The notes under the pieces are model-generated. The model was not told the origin of the DNA and did not search any database. It worked only from the letters and a program-made list of their open reading frames with translations. The position numbers and the translations under genes were made by a program. DNA of 64,000 nt from an uncultured Cyclobacteriaceae bacterium. Its GTDB lineage: Bacteria; Bacteroidota; Bacteroidia; Cytophagales; Cyclobacteriaceae. The DNA lies in NCBI GenBank assembly GCA_943788235.1, contig CALSPM010000002.1, forward strand, positions 595,983-659,982, given 5' to 3'. Of the stretch, positions 12,317-29,187 are shown one piece after another (positions within the stretch are counted from its first letter, which is position 1; each line of letters begins with the position of its first letter).

Positions 12317-12913
12317 TTGAAATTAAAATACGCCTTGCTTCTTGTCAGCACTTCCCTTTTGAATCTGTTTAGCTGCCAAAAAAATGAGATAGATGAAATC
12401 GAAATTATAGCCTCAACTACCTTAGAAATGGTGATGCTCAATGAAGACTTATCTTACCAAGTCACTGATACAGAAATAGGCATCATCCGTTTTACACAAA
12501 AAGAAGGTGTGGTCTCCGTAGACTTAGAGGTTACTAATTTTCCCGAAGGTCAATTGTCTTATTATCATGCCATTCACATACACAACGGAACTTGTGAATC
12601 ACCCTCATCACATTGGAATCTGGGTAAAGATTTAGATTACAATTTTTGTAACGTGCTCAGCATGGATGAAGTATGGGCCAAACCCAAGGCGGGTGATCTA
12701 GGTAATGTCTATATCAATGAAGCAGGAGTGGGAGATTTTAGTTTACAGACAGATCTCTATACCATTGGATCAAATGACGCTTCAGACATTGTTGGAAAGA
12801 TTATTTATATGCATGAAGTAGCCGAAAATTTTAAACAAGAATGTTTTGAAGATCACAACCATGACCACAATAACAAAAAAATAGCTTGTGGTACGATTGA
12901 ACTTATGAACTAA
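12317..12913 (+). CDS. Cu/Zn-superoxide-dismutase-like lipoprotein lacking the zinc site
   Basis: 198 residues. A TTG start gives a lipoprotein signal ending NLFSC (Cys20). The SodC fold is recognisable from HAIHIHNGTC (His87 and His89), SSHWN (His99), AGDLGNVYINEAG (Asp127), YMHEV (His166) and ACGTIEL (Cys191, pairing with Cys93). Copper ligands are therefore kept. The zinc-ligand His normally in RHAGDLGN is Lys124, the zinc His in the intervening loop is absent, and the active-site Arg before ACG is Lys. A His-rich patch DHNHDH precedes the end. By analogy with copper-only SODs it may dismutate superoxide or bind copper. The gene is 2 bp before the dipeptidase gene. Confidence 0.72.
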   Translation: MKLKYALLLVSTSLLNLFSCQKNEIDEIEIIASTTLEMVMLNEDLSYQVTDTEIGIIRFTQKEGVVSVDLEVTNFPEGQLSYYHAIHIHNGTCESPSSHWNLGKDLDYNFCNVLSMDEVWAKPKAGDLGNVYINEAGVGDFSLQTDLYTIGSNDASDIVGKIIYMHEVAENFKQECFEDHNHDHNNKKIACGTIELMN

Positions 12914-12914
12914 G

Positions 12915-14078
12915 ATGAAAAAATTACTTAAGTATGCCTTCACTTTATTTTCATCAGGGACCTTACTTTTTTTCTACTTAGTGGGAAAAATCACAGATAA
13001 ATCTATGAATAAGGTTAAGGTTTTGGACCATTATGAGCCTTCTCAGCATGCCTTACAATTACACAGTGACTTAACCATTGCAGATCTCCATGCTGACAAT
13101 TTATTGTGGGACAGAGACCTCACCTCAGCGACTACACACGGCATGGTCGACCTTCCCAAGTTAATCTCGGGAAATTATACCCTTCAAGTATTCGATGCGG
13201 TCATAAAATCTCCCCGAAACCTTAATTATCTTTCTAATTCGGCCGATACTGATAACCTTACCTTATTAGCAGCTGCCAATAGATGGCCGTTCAAAACTTG
13301 GTTCAGCCTCTATGCTCGTGCCTTACATCAAAGTGAATTACTTAAAACAGCTGTTCAAAACTCATCACAGCTAGAATTTATTCAAACACAAGATGACCTA
13401 AACTATTTTTTAAGGCTTCGGAAAAATAATAGTTATAAAATCGGTGCCATTTTATCAATAGAAGGCTTACATGCTCTTGAGGGGAATTTTCTGAATTTAG
13501 ATGGCCTTTATGATGCGGGTTTTAGGATCATGGGACTCGTTCATTTTTTTGATAATGAAATAGGCGGTTCTTCAGCGGGTGAATCAAAACAAGGGCTGAC
13601 AGATTTCGGAAAACGCATCATTCATGAAATAGAAAAAAAAGAAATCATCATCGATCTCGCTCATGCCTCTCCCAAATTAATAGAAGAGGTCCTTGAGATC
13701 GTCAAAAGACCCGTAATCGTCTCTCATACTGGAGTCAATGGCATCTTTGATAGTCCTCGGAATCTATCCGATGCCGATTTGCGGGCAATCGCTAAAAATG
13801 GAGGTCTGATAGGTATCGGATTCTGGGAGGAGGCCGTAGGGTCTATTCACCCGACTTCCATCGCTGCCGCCATAAGATATACAAGTGATTTAATAGGTGT
13901 AGATCATGTTGCATTAGGCTCAGATTTTGACGGTGCGGTTACTACCAGCTTTGATGCCTCAAACATTATTTTACTTACTGAAGCCCTCATTCAAGAAGAT
14001 TTTTCCGATATAGAAATTAAAAAAATTATGGGAGGTAATCAAATTAAATTTTTAAGGCATAATTTACCAAAAAAATAA
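12915..14078 (+). CDS. Membrane dipeptidase (peptidase M19), renal-dipeptidase type
   Basis: 387 residues with an N-terminal hydrophobic anchor. The zinc site is visible as ADLHADNLL (HxD), LSIEGLHAL (bridging Glu), DLAHAS and VSHTG (His ligands) and GSDFDG (Asp). M19 enzymes hydrolyse dipeptides such as Cys-Gly. It starts 2 bp after the SodC-like gene and ends 7 bp before the gamma-glutamyltransferase gene. This ordering suggests sequential breakdown of glutathione: GGT releases Glu, then this enzyme splits Cys-Gly. It acts at the outer face of the cytoplasmic membrane or in the periplasm. Confidence 0.92.
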   Translation: MKKLLKYAFTLFSSGTLLFFYLVGKITDKSMNKVKVLDHYEPSQHALQLHSDLTIADLHADNLLWDRDLTSATTHGMVDLPKLISGNYTLQVFDAVIKSPRNLNYLSNSADTDNLTLLAAANRWPFKTWFSLYARALHQSELLKTAVQNSSQLEFIQTQDDLNYFLRLRKNNSYKIGAILSIEGLHALEGNFLNLDGLYDAGFRIMGLVHFFDNEIGGSSAGESKQGLTDFGKRIIHEIEKKEIIIDLAHASPKLIEEVLEIVKRPVIVSHTGVNGIFDSPRNLSDADLRAIAKNGGLIGIGFWEEAVGSIHPTSIAAAIRYTSDLIGVDHVALGSDFDGAVTTSFDASNIILLTEALIQEDFSDIEIKKIMGGNQIKFLRHNLPKK

Positions 14079-14084
14079 AAGTAT

Positions 14085-15785
14085 ATGAAAAAAATCAATG
14101 TGGTTGTATTCTTGATAATTAATTTTTTTAGCTGTAACAAGCCTAAGGTCACTGCTCCTCAAGAAATTAAAGGTGCTCTTGGAGAAAAAGCCATGGTGGC
14201 TACTACCCATCCTCTGGCTACTGCTGTTGGATTAGAAATCATGAAGAAAGGTGGTAATGCCATCGATGCAGCTATTGGCATTCAATTCGCATTGAGTGTA
14301 GTCTATCCACAAGCTGGAAACATTGGTGGAGGTGGCTTCGCGGTAATCCGGTTGGCAAATGGAAAAGTATCAACCTTAGATTTTCGCGAAAAAGCACCTC
14401 AGTTAGCCGAAAAAAATATGTACCTCAGCCCAGATGGTAAAGTGGTTCAAACAAAAATCAGATTGGGTCATCTCGCTTCAGGCGTTCCAGGATCGGTAGC
14501 GGGAATGTGGGAATTACATCAAAAGCATGGTCATCTCCCTTGGTCTGACTTAATCAATCCAGCTATTAATTTAGCCTACAGCGGTCATCTATTGACAGAA
14601 AGAATAGCTAAGAGTCTTAATGAGAATCAAAATAATTTTAGAGAAGCCAATCGATACCTGCCTTGGGTCCTCAAGGAGAAAGGTTGGAATAAAGGAGATA
14701 CCTCTGTTCAAAAGCAATTGGCTTCTACCCTTTCTTTTATTCAAAAAAAAGGTCGCGATGGTTTTTATAAGGGTATTGTAGCGGATCAATTAGTTAAAGA
14801 AATGATGCTTGGCCAAGGTATTATTTCTGCAGCCGATCTGATCAATTATCAACCCGTCTGGCGAGATCCCATCAAGGGAACTTATAAAGGACACACCATC
14901 TATTCAATGGCACCTCCATCTAGTGGTGGGATCGCTCTGATTCAATTACTGAAGGGCTCAGAGTACTTAAATTTTGAAAGAATGAAATTCAACAGTGCGG
15001 AAATGTTACATTATAAAACAGAAGTAGAACGGAGAGTTTATGCCGACCGGGCTATTCATTTGGGTGATCCTGATTATTATGAGGTCCCCACAGAGGCGCT
15101 CATTAACGACAATTACAATGAAAAAAGATTTTCAAATATTAAGAAGCATAAAAAAACACCTAGTTCAAAGGTGATGGAAGGAGATGTTGCCCCTCATGAA
15201 AGTCCTGAAACGACCCATTTCTCCGTTGTTGATCCTGCCGGTAATGCCGTTGCCTTAACCACAACGCTTAATGGGAGTTATGGTTCTTCCGTTATGGTGA
15301 AAGGTGCAGGTTTTTTCTTAAATAACGAAATGGATGATTTTAGTGCCAAGCCAGGTGTTCCCAATATATACGGTCTCATTGGTTCTGAAGCCAATGCCAT
15401 TGCTCCAGGAAAACGAATGCTCAGCAGCATGACGCCCACCATCGTAGAAAAGGAAGGTGCCTTGTTTTTAGTTACTGGTTCGCCCGGTGGGGCCACTATC
15501 ATTACTACGGTTTTTCAAAGTATCATCAATGTTATTGATTTTGATATGGGTCTTCAGGAAGCCATTAATGCAAAAAAAACCCATAGTCAGTGGCTGCCTG
15601 ACATCCTTTTCATTGAAAATGGGGGAATCTCCTCTGAAGTTCAATTAGATTTAGAGAAACGTGGGCATTCGATTAGTTTTAAAGAAAGCCCAAGCAAAAT
15701 TAATGCGATATTGGTCCTTGAAGATGGTAGCCTGGAGGGGGGTGCTGATTACTTACGAAGTGATAGCTATGCCGAAGGATTTTAA
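14085..15785 (+). CDS. ggt: Gamma-glutamyltransferase, lipoprotein
   Basis: 566 residues. The signal ends NFFSC, so the protein is probably lipid-anchored. The heavy-chain region has MVATTHPLATAVGLEIMKKG, GGNAIDAAIG, GNIGGGGFAV and FREKAP. The autoprocessing Thr nucleophile is in ESPETTHFSVVDPAGNAVA, followed by the small-subunit motifs PGKRMLSSMTPT and GSPGG. The length and complete motifs suggest an active N-terminal-nucleophile hydrolase that cleaves gamma-glutamyl bonds, for example of glutathione. It is the last gene of the 12317-15785 operon and overlaps the convergent OmpA gene by 4 bp. Confidence 0.95.
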   Translation: MKKINVVVFLIINFFSCNKPKVTAPQEIKGALGEKAMVATTHPLATAVGLEIMKKGGNAIDAAIGIQFALSVVYPQAGNIGGGGFAVIRLANGKVSTLDFREKAPQLAEKNMYLSPDGKVVQTKIRLGHLASGVPGSVAGMWELHQKHGHLPWSDLINPAINLAYSGHLLTERIAKSLNENQNNFREANRYLPWVLKEKGWNKGDTSVQKQLASTLSFIQKKGRDGFYKGIVADQLVKEMMLGQGIISAADLINYQPVWRDPIKGTYKGHTIYSMAPPSSGGIALIQLLKGSEYLNFERMKFNSAEMLHYKTEVERRVYADRAIHLGDPDYYEVPTEALINDNYNEKRFSNIKKHKKTPSSKVMEGDVAPHESPETTHFSVVDPAGNAVALTTTLNGSYGSSVMVKGAGFFLNNEMDDFSAKPGVPNIYGLIGSEANAIAPGKRMLSSMTPTIVEKEGALFLVTGSPGGATIITTVFQSIINVIDFDMGLQEAINAKKTHSQWLPDILFIENGGISSEVQLDLEKRGHSISFKESPSKINAILVLEDGSLEGGADYLRSDSYAEGF

Positions 15786-21231: not shown

Positions 21232-23723
21232 TCATTTCTGACCCATAGAAATTAAATTAGTGAACATTCGATAAGCCCCTTCTACACCTGCAGGAAGCTC
21301 TCTGAACCATGAATAACCACTATAAATATAATAGCCTTCTCCGTGACTTGCCACGAGTAACCCTCCCTCTTTAGGAGATTCTCCAGGATCATTTGAACTT
21401 AAAATAGGCATGAATTTCTCATCCCATTCAGAGCAAAAATACAAACCTCTCTCTTGTACCCATCCATCAAAATCATGCATCGTAATTTTATTGGGGAAAT
21501 TCATAGACCTATGTCTTGGCGCAAGAATCCTTACAGGAGCGGTTTCTACAGAGACACGATCCCTTGACAATAATAATGGATAAGGAGCGATTTCTTGGGT
21601 TACTAAATTTCTATTGGTATTATACTGAACGATTACGGTTCCTCCTTTAAAGCAATAATCAAAAAGTTCTTGGTTTTTGTAAGCCAGCCATTCAACGGTA
21701 TTAAAGGCACGAACCCCCAATATAATCGCATCAAACTGCATCAAATGATCAACGGTCACATCGTCTTTATCCAACAAGCTCACCTGATATCCAATTTGTC
21801 TCAATAAATTTGGAAGCATATCTCCCGCACCTTCAATGTAGCCAATAGATTTACTTACCTTAGCCATATTTAATTTAATCAAATCAATTTTAGCCGGCTT
21901 CAGTACAGTTTGAACAGGAATATGATTGTAAGCAATAATTTGAACTTGCTGATTGGAAATATTCCCATCATCAGAAACAAAATAAGCTTTTAAATCACCT
22001 GAATTGGCCTTATATTTTGGTTTAATATTGATACTTATCAAGCGCTCTTCATTCTTCAATGAAATAAATAAGGCTGAATCATTGATGTCCGTTTGCCAAT
22101 CTTTTGGAACGACTACATGAAGCTTACCGGAAACATTATCCTTCCCTGCTACTAATCGTAGATCTATCCGTTTATCATTATCATTAGAAAATACTACATT
22201 GTCAACCGATAAATTGATGGCTACATCAGGTACGATCGCGATAGGTCGATAAACTTCACCATCGACAGGATCTGTAAATTTGTGATGAATAGGTTGTACT
22301 AATTCCAAATATTGGTTTCCTATGGCTAAAGTAAATCTTGCCTTTAATATCGGCTCATTGGTCGCACCGCCAATTTGATCTTTATTAGCTACATGGTACA
22401 TTCCCAGCGTACCCTTTTCGTTTAACCAATAAGGTGTGGTCATGGCAATAGAATCAGGAATTTTTAATGAATAGTCATTCACGATTTTCTGATTGTAAAG
22501 CATCACTTGATCCAACTCAACATTATAACCCCCATGGTTCGATGGTCAATTCAATTAATTTTATAGGAAAGTCTATCCTGTTAATGGCTTCTATACTCAG
22601 CTTTACCGTCTCTCCTCTTGCATAACTATAATCATCTGAAATGACTTCTAAATAAGTACCCGTGATTGCCATAATGGTCTGATTGATTTCATTCAATTTG
22701 ATTTCCTTCCAATATTGATCGGACATTTTGAGCAACTCTTGTCTTGCTTTCAACAGATAGCCCAAAGTTGGTTTTGGATTCTCCACTTTATAAACTTCTT
22801 GGGCTTCTAATAAGAATTGCGCCATTTTTTGACTTTTTTCAACCCTTTTCCAGGAAGTATCAATACCCCCAAAAACATCAGTATGAGAACTATCTCCTCG
22901 CCATAATTCTAAATATTCAAGCTCATCACCTCTTGAACCTGTCGATCCAAATCCTTGACTTTTATGCATACTGCGGCTTTGAGCAGCCATCTCGGTATAT
23001 GAAATTCCTAAATTAGGATTGTAAATACCTACATTGATTGAATATAACCCTTCGGGGTTAAACTTAATCTTGTTCCTTGCGTAAAACCAGGAGCTGGTAT
23101 TCCAAAAAAGCTTTTTAGGTTGCCATACCTCAATCGTTTTCAGCTGATCTGGATAAACGCTGGAATCACCCGCCAAGTCAAATGCCTCTAAAGCCAATAA
23201 GGCGGAAGTAGTATGATGACCATGGGTGGTACCTGATAAGGTATTAAATCTTGTGATGATGACATCCGGCTTAACGGTCCTGATCACCCGAACAAAATCT
23301 CTTAAGACTTTTTCCTTATCCCAAATGGACAAAGTCTCCATTGGAGTTTTGGAATAACCAAAATCATTGGCTCTAGAAAAAAATTGGGTGCCTCCGTCTA
23401 TTCGCCTAGCCTCAAGTAATTCTTGTGTCCTGATCAAGCCCAAGTTTTCACGTATTTCAGGACCAATCAGATTCTGTCCCCCATCCCCACGAGTCGCTGA
23501 TAAATAAGCGGTATTGAATAACTTTTCATTGGCATAATAGGCTATCAGTCTTGTGTTTTCGTCATCTGGATGTGCCGCTACATACAATACCGAACCCAAC
23601 ACATTCAATTTTTTTTAATAATTGTTTGACTTCCCCTGAAGGAATTCTTTGAACGGATTGTGCGGCTAACGAGCTGATCAATAACCAGCAACTCAAGGTA
23701 ATTATACTACGTAGAAAATGCAT
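21232..23723 (-). pseudogene. PIG-L family deacetylase, broken by two homopolymer frameshifts
   Basis: Read across two shifts, this is one ~830-residue exported protein. A signal peptide (MHFLRSIITL..., start 23723) runs into an A8 run (plus strand T8 at 23609-23616), where the frame changes. The PIG-L domain then follows in a second frame (AAHPDDEN zinc motif, HGHHTTSALL) to 22523. A G5 run (C5 at 22529-22533) shifts again into the C-terminal half, 21232-22515 (sugar-binding-like beta domains and a ThuA/GATase-like tail, MQFDAIILGVRAFN). PIG-L enzymes deacetylate N-acetylglucosaminyl groups. Both lesions are single-nucleotide changes in homopolymers, so a sequencing error is as likely as real inactivation. 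The intact relative may be functional. Confidence 0.8.
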
Positions 23724-24062: not shown

Positions 24063-24783
24063 TTGCAAAAATTAATCGAAAACATCCTTTTTGACTTTTC
24101 CTATTTATTGTTGTGTGCCCTATCGATCGGGTATTTCATGGTACTTTACTTTGGGGTAGGTGCGCTATTCTTATTTGCTTGTAAAGGATTAGAACGTGTG
24201 AAGCTCCTACATAAAATAGAATTAAAACCGGTAGAAAAAAAAACAGATAACTTTCGAAATAGCACATTCAATAAAATCGATCCTCATTTTTGGCTTTTCT
24301 ATAAGCCCTGTAATTTATCTTGTTCGGACAGATTTCATATTGCTATTGCCAAATACCTGGCTGAATATAATGCTAGGAATTGTGCTACTCACACTTTGGA
24401 ATGAAGTTCATTTTTTTGTTGTTCACCGCCTTATGCATTTCGATTTTTTCATGAGGCATATTCATTTCATTCATCATAAATCAAGAATCCCAACGGTTTA
24501 CTCAGTTTACAGTTTCCATTGGTTTGAAGCATTTTTACTAAGTACAGTCCCTCTAACGATACTCCCATTTATTCCTTTTTCAATAGTGGCGGTGTTCATC
24601 TATCCATTTGTAAGTATCTTACTGAATTTCGCGGGTCATTGTAATTACCGTTTTGGTAATGGAAAGAGAGACCAATGGTTAAATTTTGGAACTGCGCACA
24701 ATACACATCACACAAAAGGCAGAAAAAATTACGGCTTTGCCCTCAATTTTTTGGACAAATTATTTTCTAGACTAAATAAATAA
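24063..24783 (+). pseudogene. Fatty acid hydroxylase/sterol desaturase family, one frameshift
   Basis: About 240 residues when read across a frameshift in an A9 run at 24235-24243. Removing one A joins EKK to QITFEIAHSIKSILIFG in the frame that continues through the catalytic domain. The three histidine clusters are intact: HRLMH, HFIHH and HNTHH, with FAGHCNYRFG between. The N-terminal part has two hydrophobic segments; the start is a TTG. These membrane diiron enzymes hydroxylate or desaturate lipids or sterols. It is 4 bp before the ketosynthase-fusion reading and starts the lipid cluster. The lesion may be real or a homopolymer error. No ATG start in this frame was found. Confidence 0.75.
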
Positions 24784-24787
24784 AAAC

Positions 24788-26637
24788 ATGGAAGAGGTCT
24801 ATATCATAAGTTCGGGTATTTTTTTACCCAATGAGCCCATTTCAAATTATGAAATGTAAGACTATTTGGGCCGAATCAATGGGAAAAATAGCTCTGTTAA
24901 AGACCGTATTTAAGACAAAATGGTATAAATAATCGATATTATGCGCTAAATAAGGCACAAAAAAGCACGCATTCCAATACTCAATTAGCCGTTCATTCGA
25001 TCAATCAAGCAGTCAAAAGAAGCCCCCTTGGATCAAAAGACATTCAGCTCTTAACCACTGGAACTACACAAGGAGATTTGCCCATACCAGGGTTTGCTAG
25101 TATGGTGCATGCCCAGTTGGATTTTAAGAGATGTGAATTAGCTAGTTTTCAAAGTGTCTGTGCCAGTGGTATGATGGCCTTAAAAAACGCTTTCCTTCAA
25201 TTAAAAATTGGAGAAAAACAAAATGCAGTTTGTGTTGGCAGTGAATTTGCCAGTAGGCTGTTTAAGTCCTCTAGGTTCGAAGCCCAAGGACTAAAATCAT
25301 TGCCGTTTGAATCAGAATTTTTAAGATGGATGCTCTCAGATGGGGCCGGCGCCTTTGTATTGCAAAATAAAAAAAACAAGAACGGGATTTCTTTAAAAAT
25401 AGAATGGATTGACATCAAATCTCATGCCAATGAATTTCCAGTTTGTATGTTTACAGGCAAAAATAATAACAAAGATGAAGATGAGCTTAGCTGGTTAGAT
25501 TACCCCAGCTATGAGCAGGCTTCCCAAGCAGGAGTCCTCAATTTAAAGCAAGATACGAGGTTATTAGAAAAGGTTATAGAAACAGGCGTGGCACATTATT
25601 TCGAGCTTATTGACAAGGGAAAAATTGATAGAGATAAAATTGTCTGGCTTTGCTGTCATTATTCGTCAGAAATATTCAAAGGTCCTATAAAAGAATTAAT
25701 GCGCAAAGGTGGGGGAGAAATTGCGGATGAAAAATGGTTCGGAAATTTGATAACTAAAGGCAATACGGGCGCTGCTTCTATATTCATCATGTTGGAAGAG
25801 CTCATGTATTCGGGGAAACTAAAAAAAGGAGATACCATTTTGTGTATGGTTCCTGAAAGCGGTCGATTCATTACTTCTTTTATGCAGTTAACAGTGGCAA
25901 ATAATGAGAGGAAAGAGATAAAGAGCTATCCGATAAGGGACATAGAAGCACCTCAACTGATCATCCAAAAAAATGATGTTTCAGAATGGTTGGTTAGACA
26001 ATTGACACAGATATGGATTAATTTTGAAACTGACCTATTGAATACGGCCATTATAACTAAAATCCACGAAGGAAAACTAAGCTTGGCTGATTATAAGTTG
26101 TTATTGTTAGACATGAGGCAGCAAGTCATCGATGGGTCTCAATGGATCTCCCGGGCTGCATCTAATATTGATATTGATTTGTTCGAATTGAGGTCGGCCT
26201 TCATTAAGCATACAGCAACCGAGCACAAAGATTATCAAATGCTGGAAAAAAACTATGTAGCCTTAGGGGAACAAATAGAGACCATTCAATCAGGAGAAAA
26301 AAATATAGGATCCGTTGCCTTAAGCTCTTTCATGTTTCAGCAAGCAAGCAAACCCAACCCAATAGATTTATTAGGATCGATGTTTATTATTGAAGGAATT
26401 GGCAAGCGATTGGCTGGTTTTTGGGGAGAAATGATCAAGGATCAATTAAAGTTAACGCAAAATCAAGTATCATTTTTTACCTACCACGGCATGGCTGATG
26501 AAAACCATTTCCATAACTTAGAGAGAGCATTAAATCATCCAAAAATGAATATGACCGTGGCTAAAAACATTGTTAAAACGGCCAAGACTACGGCTAAACT
26601 TTATAAAATGCAATTAGAGGAATTAGGAAATTATTGA
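24788..26637 (+). pseudogene. Ketosynthase III fused to a heme-oxygenase-like diiron domain, N-terminus broken
   Basis: From ATG 24788 the frame encodes MEEVYIISSGIFLPN..., a normal KAS III start, but has TAA at 24857 and 24911 and a missing A in the run at 24917-24920. Thereafter a clean 520-codon frame runs to 26637. The KAS III triad is kept: Cys in FQSVCASGMM, His in WLCCHYSSE and Asn in KGNTGAASI. From ~residue 300 of the intact frame a second domain appears, with TATEHKDY, MFIIEGIGKRLAGFW and YHGMADENH. The last is an H-x3-D-x2-H pair typical of heme-oxygenase-like diiron oxidases (UndA-like). Inferred role: condense two acyl chains, then oxidise the product. Lesions affect only the first ~45 codons, so the protein is probably lost or much shortened here. 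Confidence 0.78.
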
Positions 26638-27428
26638 TGCTCAGCTTATTCATATTTTGCTTTATTTATTATTTAATTGCGGGAACCGTTATCGTATTAG
26701 GCTACCATAGATCTCTTACGCATCAGGCATTTAAGATGCGAAAATGGTTTGAATACCTTGTGGTAGTTTTAGGATTGCCTGCTGGCACTCCTATTCAATG
26801 GGTGGGCAATCACCGATTTCATCATGCACATCCAGATGTAGACATAGATCCCCACTCGCCTATTATTCACGGGTTATGGTACGCCCACAATGGCTGGTAT
26901 ATCAACTCTAAAAATGGACTGCTTTGTTTCTTATATGCACTGGCTGGGCCCATACGCTTTCTAATTGATGCTTGGAACAGGCCACGAACCAATCAAGAAT
27001 ACAATCATTTGGCCGTGGATATTGCTGCAAATCCATTTTATAGATATATATCACGCCCCTCCATCTATGGGATACTGCTCTTGATACATTGCCTTATACC
27101 ATTTACATTTGCTTATACGGTTTGGGGGTTTAGTGGTCTGATTGTATTGTGGATAGACCTTGTCATCATTTTCAATTTAGGAGATAGCATCAATAGTTTA
27201 GGTCATGAAAAAATAGATGAAGATACCAGTATGGTTAATCATACTGTTTTGGCTTTTTTTACATTTGGTGATGGGTACCATAAAGATCATCATAAAAATC
27301 CTGGTTCGGCCCGATTGGGATTTCAATCCAAACAGATCGATGTGGGCTGGGGAATTTTACTTGTTTTAAAATTCTTTAATTTAGTGTATGATATTAATAC
27401 ATTAGAAGCGCAAGAAAACCCAAGTTGA
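26637..27428 (+). CDS. Fatty acyl desaturase (stearoyl-CoA desaturase type)
   Basis: About 263 residues of the membrane diiron desaturase family. Three histidine boxes are intact: HRSLTH, HRFHH and HKDHH. It also has GLPAGTPIQWVGNHR, the DPHSP motif and NSLGHEK before the third box. Four or more transmembrane segments surround them. The ATG at 26637 overlaps the ketosynthase stop (TGATG), so translation is coupled; a TTG one codon earlier is less likely. It would introduce a double bond, probably delta-9 type, into an acyl chain. It appears intact while the two genes upstream carry lesions. Confidence 0.9.
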   Translation: MLSLFIFCFIYYLIAGTVIVLGYHRSLTHQAFKMRKWFEYLVVVLGLPAGTPIQWVGNHRFHHAHPDVDIDPHSPIIHGLWYAHNGWYINSKNGLLCFLYALAGPIRFLIDAWNRPRTNQEYNHLAVDIAANPFYRYISRPSIYGILLLIHCLIPFTFAYTVWGFSGLIVLWIDLVIIFNLGDSINSLGHEKIDEDTSMVNHTVLAFFTFGDGYHKDHHKNPGSARLGFQSKQIDVGWGILLVLKFFNLVYDINTLEAQENPS

Positions 27429-27432
27429 TCCT

Positions 27433-28332
27433 ATGATAGTAGATTTTGAGTTAGAAGAAGAAAAGCACGATAGCAGAGATCCAAATCCCTGGCTGGCCTT
27501 ATATTTAGACAATAGTATACCAATCAATGACCAGACAAAAAAAGCATTAATGTCAGATAATAACTCTAAATCAAGTTATTATCTATCTCCTATCATCAAA
27601 GTTTGGTCAAAAGTAGTAATGTTTTTGATACATCTATTTAAGTTTTTCTTCCCCAAACTAATTAACTCATCAAAAATACTGCATTATATTTTGTCTTGGG
27701 GGCTCAAGCGATTTGTGAGTCCAGATGCCAACTTACTTATATTTCGACATTTTCATATAGGTACGGAAATTTTACAATTTATAGCAGCGAATATACCTGG
27801 AGTAAACTTGGTAGGAGACCCACTAAAACCAAAAACCTTCGAGGATGTAAAAGATGATTTGTTTTTAAAGCATGATTTGAATTTATACAATTTTGTCATC
27901 CGACTCAATAGTCAACTTAAAGAAAAGAGCATCACCATCAAACCACCAAAGAAAATAAATTTGGAGATGATCACAGTGGATCAGTTTGATCACATAGATT
28001 TTCCGAAGAAATGGACAAACATTGTAGACTTGCGTTCGGCGATAGAACTCTTCACCCCTTTTTATCAATTATTTCTAACTTCAAATGATTTTATTAGAGC
28101 CTCTAATTCATTGCAATTAGATGAAACGATAGCCATTTATACTTCTCAGATTTTAGGCGCACCTGGTCATTTAGGTTTAGTAAATAATAAGCATCCCATG
28201 GTACCTGTCTCTACTTATACTGCCGCTTATAGGTTGGTATTACATGGCCTGGCTGCGGAAACACTTCATGAAATTTTGGTAAATATGAAACTTAACAAAA
28301 GTTTAGATGGCGTAGTGGTTCCCGCTAAATAA
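27433..28332 (+). CDS. Unrecognised 299-residue protein of the lipid cluster
   Basis: I do not recognise the family. The protein has a hydrophilic N-terminus (many Asp/Glu), a hydrophobic stretch at ~55-75 and a conserved-looking LLIFRHFHIGTEILQFIA block. The C-terminal region contains GAPGHLGLVNNKHPMVP and YRLVLHGLAAETLHEILV. Several His residues lie in helix-like segments, so a metal site is possible but unproven. It starts 4 bp after the desaturase stop and so belongs to the same operon. The location suggests an acyl-lipid oxygenase, transferase or chaperone. The reading frame is intact and its codon use matches its neighbours. Confidence 0.7.
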   Translation: MIVDFELEEEKHDSRDPNPWLALYLDNSIPINDQTKKALMSDNNSKSSYYLSPIIKVWSKVVMFLIHLFKFFFPKLINSSKILHYILSWGLKRFVSPDANLLIFRHFHIGTEILQFIAANIPGVNLVGDPLKPKTFEDVKDDLFLKHDLNLYNFVIRLNSQLKEKSITIKPPKKINLEMITVDQFDHIDFPKKWTNIVDLRSAIELFTPFYQLFLTSNDFIRASNSLQLDETIAIYTSQILGAPGHLGLVNNKHPMVPVSTYTAAYRLVLHGLAAETLHEILVNMKLNKSLDGVVVPAK

Positions 28333-28468: not shown

Positions 28469-29187
28469 TTACATAGCGGCTAATTTAGTAGTCACCGCTT
28501 CAAAAAAAAGTCTCCCTTTTTCAGAGGTCGCTGCTTTGAGGTCTCCCAAACCCGTATCTTCTGAGATTTGAGACCATGTTCTTTCAGGCCACAACCAACC
28601 CTCTTGCATAACTTCAATCTTACTTTTTCGTTCATGGTCCATCCCTATCTAAGACAAAGTCCTCACCAAAGCAGGTCTTAAATACATCATTAAGCTGGTT
28701 TCCATCTCATCAGAATGATCATCCGGTATTTCGAAATAGGTGCTAGGATCTAATATTTTAAACCAACTGCAGGTAGCAAGCCACATTTTTAGATATTTAG
28801 CGCCCAACTCACGAAGCAGAGTCTTAAAATTATTCCCTCCATGGCCGTTCAAAATCAATAACTTGTAAATACCTTGACGATTCAAGACTTCAACCAAATC
28901 ATTGAGCACTGCCATTTTTGTACTTGGATACATATTTAAATCTAATTTATATCTCTCTGACCTGTATTCACACCGAAGGGTACGGTGGATAACAACATCA
29001 CTTGCGCGCCCTTTTCCCAAACTTTTTTGGCAGATTCTTCGCCAATGGCATCTCCTTCATAAAGATCTGTATAATAAGGTAAATGGTAATTATGGGCCTT
29101 AGTTACTCCCAAAAGCAGAATGGCATGTTAAATTGATTGTTGCTCAATCTCTTTCCAATTGGGTTCAGCTAAAATATAAGGTATCAT
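28469..29187 (-). pseudogene. Creatininase family amidohydrolase, inactivated
   Basis: Read continuously, the minus strand encodes MIPYILAEPNWKEIEQQ... through ...EAVTTKLAAM, about 240 residues. The creatininase features are AHNYHLPYYTD, VPFGVNTGQ, LILNGHGGNN and DDHSDEMETSLM. Lesions: a TAA at 29128-29130, a one-base deletion near 28944-28950 (GATATAAATTAG, lost A) and a TAG at 28649-28651. Creatininase-type enzymes hydrolyse cyclic amides and related formamides using zinc. Three independent lesions make real gene decay far more likely than sequencing error. It lies 9 bp downstream of menC. Confidence 0.88.

Follow-up and report, generated by a model that had tools for sequence, protein, structure and literature searches.

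What might be made by a ketosynthase that carries a diiron domain on the same polypeptide is the question raised by positions 24063-28332 of a 64,000-nucleotide stretch of DNA from an uncultured Cyclobacteriaceae bacterium (the window, meaning the whole stretch analyzed). Four genes, all on the plus strand, encode there a fatty acid hydroxylase, a KAS III-type ketosynthase (KS) fused to a heme-oxygenase-like diiron oxidase (HDO) domain, a fatty acid desaturase, and a 299-residue protein of the DUF6999 family, in that order (Table 1). This gene content, order, and strand had been proposed in an initial annotation and are borne out by the open reading frames and by Pfam, as is its clustering of three putative diiron lipid enzymes, namely the hydroxylase, the HDO domain, and the desaturase. 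Because these genes are found together again in other genomes, the grouping is more than chance; the window contains one copy, broken in part, of a small cassette that is present in several bacterial phyla. The cassette probably makes an undescribed ring-bearing lipid.

The recurrence was followed in 95 loci, the window included (L numbers denote loci and G numbers genomes in the comparison; L028 is the main reference relative of the window). In 86 of them the fused KS-HDO gene and DUF6999 occur together on one strand, and in four (L106, L149, L156, and L157) the KS and HDO are split into adjacent genes. The rest comprise two loci with HDO and DUF6999 and three with DUF6999 alone; among these five, L086, L088, and L089 start at a contig end, and the incompleteness of L030 and L094 looks like real loss. 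HDO and DUF6999 lie on the same strand in all 92 loci that have both, with a gap of at most 300 bases in 80 and 306 bases in L086, of 790-862 bases in ten loci that have the desaturase in between, and of 3,100 bases in L099, where two other frames intervene. The 95-locus count omits loci below L016 together with L016, L020-L023, L026, and L027; the omitted DUF6999/HDO loci repeat counted ones, except L023 and L027, and one repeat was kept (L024 = L050), giving 94 distinct loci of the 95. One named-genome scan contributed the best 80 of 212 relatives.

When the neighbors at 83 loci were clustered, 58 loci proved to have the hydroxylase and 10 the desaturase, and apart from the four cassette genes no cluster of frames of at least 80 residues occurs in more than 8 of the 83. 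The co-occurrence for which the initial annotation had proposed a check thus holds for KS, HDO, and DUF6999, the only members that are nearly always together, but not for the hydroxylase and desaturase, which are lineage-limited. In the proteobacterial loci L150, L152, L153, and L154 the order is hydroxylase, desaturase, KS-HDO, DUF6999, and in Pseudoalteromonas the KS, HDO, and DUF6999 are annotated as three separate neighboring genes. The unit is present in Bacteroidota, Bacillota, and Pseudomonadota, and on single metagenome contigs labelled Acidobacteriota and Chlorobiota; among 72,556 plasmid records DUF6999 was found in one. The cassette is open in, for example, Zobellia uliginosa DSM 2061 (L050) and Paenibacillus nasutitermitis (L104).

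Because most of the 95 loci were collected through DUF6999, the reverse test rests on a comparison of 148 genomes and on one with the DarB class of ketosynthases. Of the 148 genomes, all of the window's order, five have the fusion, and DUF6999 is found in exactly these five. In 395 genomes of the window's phylum DUF6999 was found in five, including G357 as a weak exception, and in 398 genomes of Pseudomonadota, the phylum of L105, it was found in nine, with KS and HDO adjoining in 9/9. A class sample of 345 genomes gave a match to the DarB model in 59, with a fused KS in six, the window's included. In each of the other five genomes with a fused KS, DUF6999 lies no more than about 1 kb away on that contig and strand. 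The remaining 53 matching genomes lack a fused KS; DUF6999 was sought in 31 of them and found in 0/31. Of these 31, 30 have a full-length unfused match (23 over the DarB cut-off), and G1089 has fragments only. The control genome of Caulobacter vibrioides matches both DUF6999 and a DarB-type KS.

Several loci depart from this layout. In G357 (L023/L027) a KS-like gene is close to a weak DUF6999 match of 32 bits that contains a stop, and an HDO was not found; this locus is a possible remnant or divergent form. Flagellimonas algicola has two KS-HDO and DUF6999 pairs, on different contigs (L043 and L076). At the split loci L149 (9603-10175) and L157 (11444-12022) a protein of about 190 residues with no Pfam match precedes the KS, and in L149 a 634-residue protein (12609-14726), annotated as hypothetical and also with no Pfam match, follows DUF6999.

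Which known ketosynthases the cassette KS resembles is the next question. The KAS III with an intact C-H-N triad that the initial annotation described is present in the window, and the triad is invariant in 38/38 aligned fusions. Its suggested likeness to OleA did not hold up: among NCBI families StlD/DarB come closest, and by sequence the closest solved protein is StlD (E = 1e-113), with OleA (5vxh) at only E = 7.2e-7. The StlD/DarB family beta-ketosynthase model NF005293 gives 428.9 bits for L028, 435.8 for L104, and 368 for the window, the last with the N-terminus missing, and the curated cut-off of 450 is not reached. The predicted structure of the L028 fusion (mean predicted local distance difference test, pLDDT, 88.8; predicted template modelling score, pTM, 0.65) matches StlD in Foldseek with E = 6.7e-34 and 40% identity over 382 columns. 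OleA (5vxh) is among the structural matches as well; as all 50 matches shown are of KAS III type, this search gave no placement of the HDO part.

At 32 KS columns, 88 sequences of the KS-HDO type and 32 DarB sequences share the same residue with a conservation of at least 97%; the two FabH-like proteins of the window's genome both depart from it at 19 of these columns. Full-length matches to the DarB model in the class sample fall into two kinds, frames of 374-423 residues scoring at least 459.8 bits and frames of 616-635 residues scoring 387.3-416.5 bits, a split that sets aside the window copy (343.6 bits, 578 residues) and the G1089 fragments. In a quick tree of 58 rows, in which 16 of 55 forks are open, the DarB branch is not starred, and L156 has a long branch, the DarB sequences form one side of a branch with support 89, and the split KSs are interspersed among the fused ones. 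On sequence, then, the cassette KS is best described as a sister group of StlD/DarB, not as OleA-like. The window's genome has four other KAS III-type genes, two with weak matches to the DarB model (at most 31 bits) and two with none at E 0.001; one of the latter pair (362 residues) looks, on reading, like a putative type III polyketide synthase beside a UbiA-like gene.

The C-terminal part of the fusion is supported as an HDO-like domain, in agreement with the initial annotation. A profile of 18 such domains matches PDB entry 3dde, of heme-oxygenase-like fold, with E = 8.5e-13, and 17 of the 18 match PF14518 at E 0.01 or better; the PF14518 gathering score is exceeded in L104, L106, L156, and L157, and the window and L028 lie below it. 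Seven candidate metal ligands (H475, E479, D482, E536, H567, D571, and H574 numbered as in L028; in the window frame opening at 24901 each number is lower by 38) are invariant in 92/92 sequences, 91 of them distinct. The alpha3 motif H-x3-D-x2-H, also noted in the initial annotation, is present in the window and in 90/92 overall. In most HDOs the metal ligands are believed to be three His and three carboxylates (available portions of PMC11965152 and of a 2026 review, PMC13108848), and the conserved set, as a predicted site, is compatible with that rule.

According to the same portion of the review, the HDO family includes UndA, which uses Fe2+ and O2 to turn dodecanoic acid into 1-undecene by decarboxylation. 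UndA's membership, together with the place of OleA as a KAS III relative among the structural matches, would suit a route in which OleA-like head-to-head condensation and UndA-like decarboxylation yield an olefin or hydrocarbon. We hold this to be very improbable: StlD is far closer in sequence, the residues common to DarB are retained in the cassette KS, and no further gene recurs beyond the neighbor threshold given above (ole genes were not searched by family). Since StlD is nearer than OleA, a ring-forming condensation of two chains is more likely than a hydrocarbon route.

The third near-constant member, left unrecognized in the initial annotation, does belong to a named family, DUF6999 (PF22523, E = 1.4e-118). 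Its residues H106, H147, D148, D199, D230, H271, and E276 are kept in 92/92 sequences, and the predicted structure is mostly helical (mean pLDDT 85.9). Foldseek gave no match in PDB or BFVD with an E value of 0.001 or better, and a sequence search of PDB gave none up to E 10. The idea that DUF6999 is a second HDO was rejected, as the profile comparison gave no match. It may be a partner enzyme or an assembly factor. No paper on DUF6999 was found in the open-licence literature, which omits most subscription papers, and the cassette gives the family a functional context.

What the cassette might do with these parts can be put as follows. DarB/StlD-type enzymes make 2,5-dialkylcyclohexane-1,3-diones by joining two acyl thioesters, one beta-ketoacyl and the other alpha,beta-unsaturated (PMC4578411, available portion). 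We tentatively favor a two-chain lipid-ring synthase in which the KS makes the ring and the fused diiron domain performs the oxidative finish in place of DarA. The KS would join a beta-ketoacyl thioester to a second, probably alpha,beta-unsaturated, acyl thioester and give a carboxylated cyclohexanedione, as in DarB/StlD, whose reaction passes through a ring-carboxyl intermediate. The HDO domain would then oxidize the ring with O2, replacing DarA. One route could be an UndA-like oxidative decarboxylation of the ring carboxylate to a cyclohexenedione, which would tautomerize to a 2,5-dialkylresorcinol, and in some lineages the hydroxylase and desaturase would tailor the acyl chains. That HDO is fused or adjacent to KS in 90 of the 95 loci suggests that the KS product is its direct substrate. 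The strongest form of this proposal, a single polypeptide that is an O2-dependent resorcinol synthase with an UndA-type, iron-based replacement for DarA, and with DUF6999 as a third, structurally new pathway enzyme, is unlikely.

The comparison with DarA bears on this proposal and on its closest competitor. DarA is a separate, flavodoxin-like protein. A profile of putative DarA, built from the DarB neighbor of about 300 residues in four genomes, matches 4 of 31 genomes that have the cassette (G323, G537, G955, and G916) and leaves 27 without a match; exactly those four have, besides the cassette, a DarB-like KS elsewhere in the genome, that of G916 at 463.6 bits, below the cut-off. On this putative identification of DarA, the cassette does not go with DarA. 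A pathway that forms no aromatic ring would be just as likely to lack DarA, and it is possible, if doubtful, that the KS makes a product of the dialkyl-cyclohexanedione type, or another two-chain product, which HDO, DUF6999, hydroxylase, and desaturase tailor by hydroxylation, desaturation, or chain cleavage and do not aromatize. The frequent company of the hydroxylase and the occasional company of the desaturase agree with such tailoring, but it leaves unexplained why HDO is so regularly joined to the KS. We regard tailoring without aromatization as nearly as likely as a resorcinol-forming step.

A number of points weigh against the ring synthase that we favor. The profile proteins are ones we take to be DarA from their position next to DarB, as in the darA/darB table of PMC3949708, not from a family model; NCBIfam names neither of the two that were scanned, and Pfam gives one of the two a sub-threshold flavodoxin match. 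A product that is not aromatic, and so requires no aromatase, would fit the absence of DarA as well. A KS below the StlD/DarB cut-off may differ in substrate or ring chemistry. For the HDO domain, the metal site is predicted from conservation and UndA-like chemistry is suggested by the fold; the alpha1 motif H-x3-E-x2-D is unusual and has no E-x9-H spacing like that given for DtpC (E143/H153, from a partial source), and in L018 and L019 (2/92) the alpha3 motif reads H-x3-D-x4-H. Among frames of at least 80 residues, no carrier protein recurs beside the cassette. The role of DUF6999 is suggested by co-occurrence, and the ring product and enzyme activity of the cassette are putative.

Table 1. 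Cassette features in the window (positions counted from its first nucleotide).
Feature	Position	Strand	Remarks
Fatty acid hydroxylase (PF04116)	24063..24783	+	Pfam E 1.4e-21 on 3' open part; two frames
KS-HDO fusion gene	24788..26637	+	ATG at 24788; open from 24901 to stop 26635-26637
StlD/DarB-like ketosynthase domain	24788..25902	+	Limits from L028 model; PF08541 (KS C-terminal domain) E 1.9e-9
KS triad	C 25159-25161; H 25657-25659; N 25762-25764	+	
HDO domain	25975..26634	+	Haem_oxygenas_2 PF14518, E 6.6e-4, 20 bits (cut-off 28.9)
Fatty acid desaturase (PF00487)	26637..27428	+	E 1.3e-14; open frame
DUF6999 (PF22523) protein, 299 residues	27433..28332	+	E 1.4e-118; open frame

Whether the cassette still works in this organism is a separate question. 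The window hydroxylase is split by a one-nucleotide insertion near 24235, within an A run, and the N-terminus of the fusion is interrupted twice, by an in-frame TAA (24857-24859) and by a one-nucleotide deletion near 24908 in a T run; because of these frameshifts and the stop, neither gene is open from its start. The His boxes of the L028 hydroxylase are still present in the 3' part of the window gene, and the ATG of the desaturase shares one base with the stop of the fusion gene. In L028 and L029, whose DNA is about 93% identical to the window over the cluster, all four genes are open. We consider the fusion and hydroxylase genes of the window genome damaged and probably decaying, with recent decay more likely than error.

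That the breaks are sequencing or assembly errors, and that the cassette works in this organism, is a rather unlikely reading, which concerns the window copy only. It would account for the one-nucleotide indels in homopolymer runs and for the low ratios of nonsynonymous to synonymous change (pN/pS) that persist against L028 (KS 0.098, HDO 0.10, DUF6999 0.098; desaturase 0.16 and hydroxylase 0.28 in the same comparison), and the neighboring PIG-L and creatininase genes also carry one-nucleotide indels, several of them in homopolymers. Against it, one KS stop codon is a substitution, and the KS end branch in the tree is longer for the window than for L028 (0.046 vs 0.0098). In L030, by our reading, the surrounding genes are the same as in the window but everything between a point in the hydroxylase gene and one within the desaturase gene is gone, and L094 retains a truncated DUF6999 alone, with no KS or HDO found there.

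The two neighboring genes lie on the minus strand. The PIG-L family gene (21232-23608) is split by a one-nucleotide insertion near 22529 into two frames of 427 and 361 residues, and is a single frame of about 835 residues in L028 and L030. The creatininase gene (28649-29020) is cut by a one-nucleotide deletion near 28945; the L028 open frame is longer (256 residues).

How the cassette compares with described systems can now be stated, with the conserved KS-HDO-DUF6999 unit named. The open-licence papers searched, a scope outside which most subscription papers lie, gave no earlier description of the KAS III-HDO fusion noted in the initial annotation and no link of resorcinols or of a KS to an HDO. 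The words "ketosynthase" and "fused" are absent from the available portion of the HDO review (PMC13108848), in which SznF differs from other characterized HDOs by an extra domain, a cupin.

With StlD/DarB the cassette KS has in common the KAS III fold, the C-H-N triad, and the 32 conserved columns, and StlD is its nearest solved structure; it differs in that DarB lies across a branch of support 89, that the cassette KS falls under the NCBI cut-offs, that an HDO is fused or adjacent to it, and that the putative DarA is mostly absent. The HDO domain resembles the superfamily of UndA, SznF, CADD, and BesC in its heme-oxygenase-like helical domain and invariant His and carboxylate residues, and differs in its fusion to a ketosynthase and in its alpha1 motif. 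The DarA-DarB system of dialkylresorcinol and flexirubin clusters also pairs a DarB-type KS with an oxidizing partner gene, darA being listed as a DAR-aromatase in a darA/darB table (PMC3949708, available portion). There the partner is a protein apart from the KS, whereas that of the cassette would be a diiron domain, with DUF6999. The cassette thereby offers a testable case of diiron chemistry replacing DarA in a two-chain lipid-ring pathway: its parts are of known kinds, and their combination is new.

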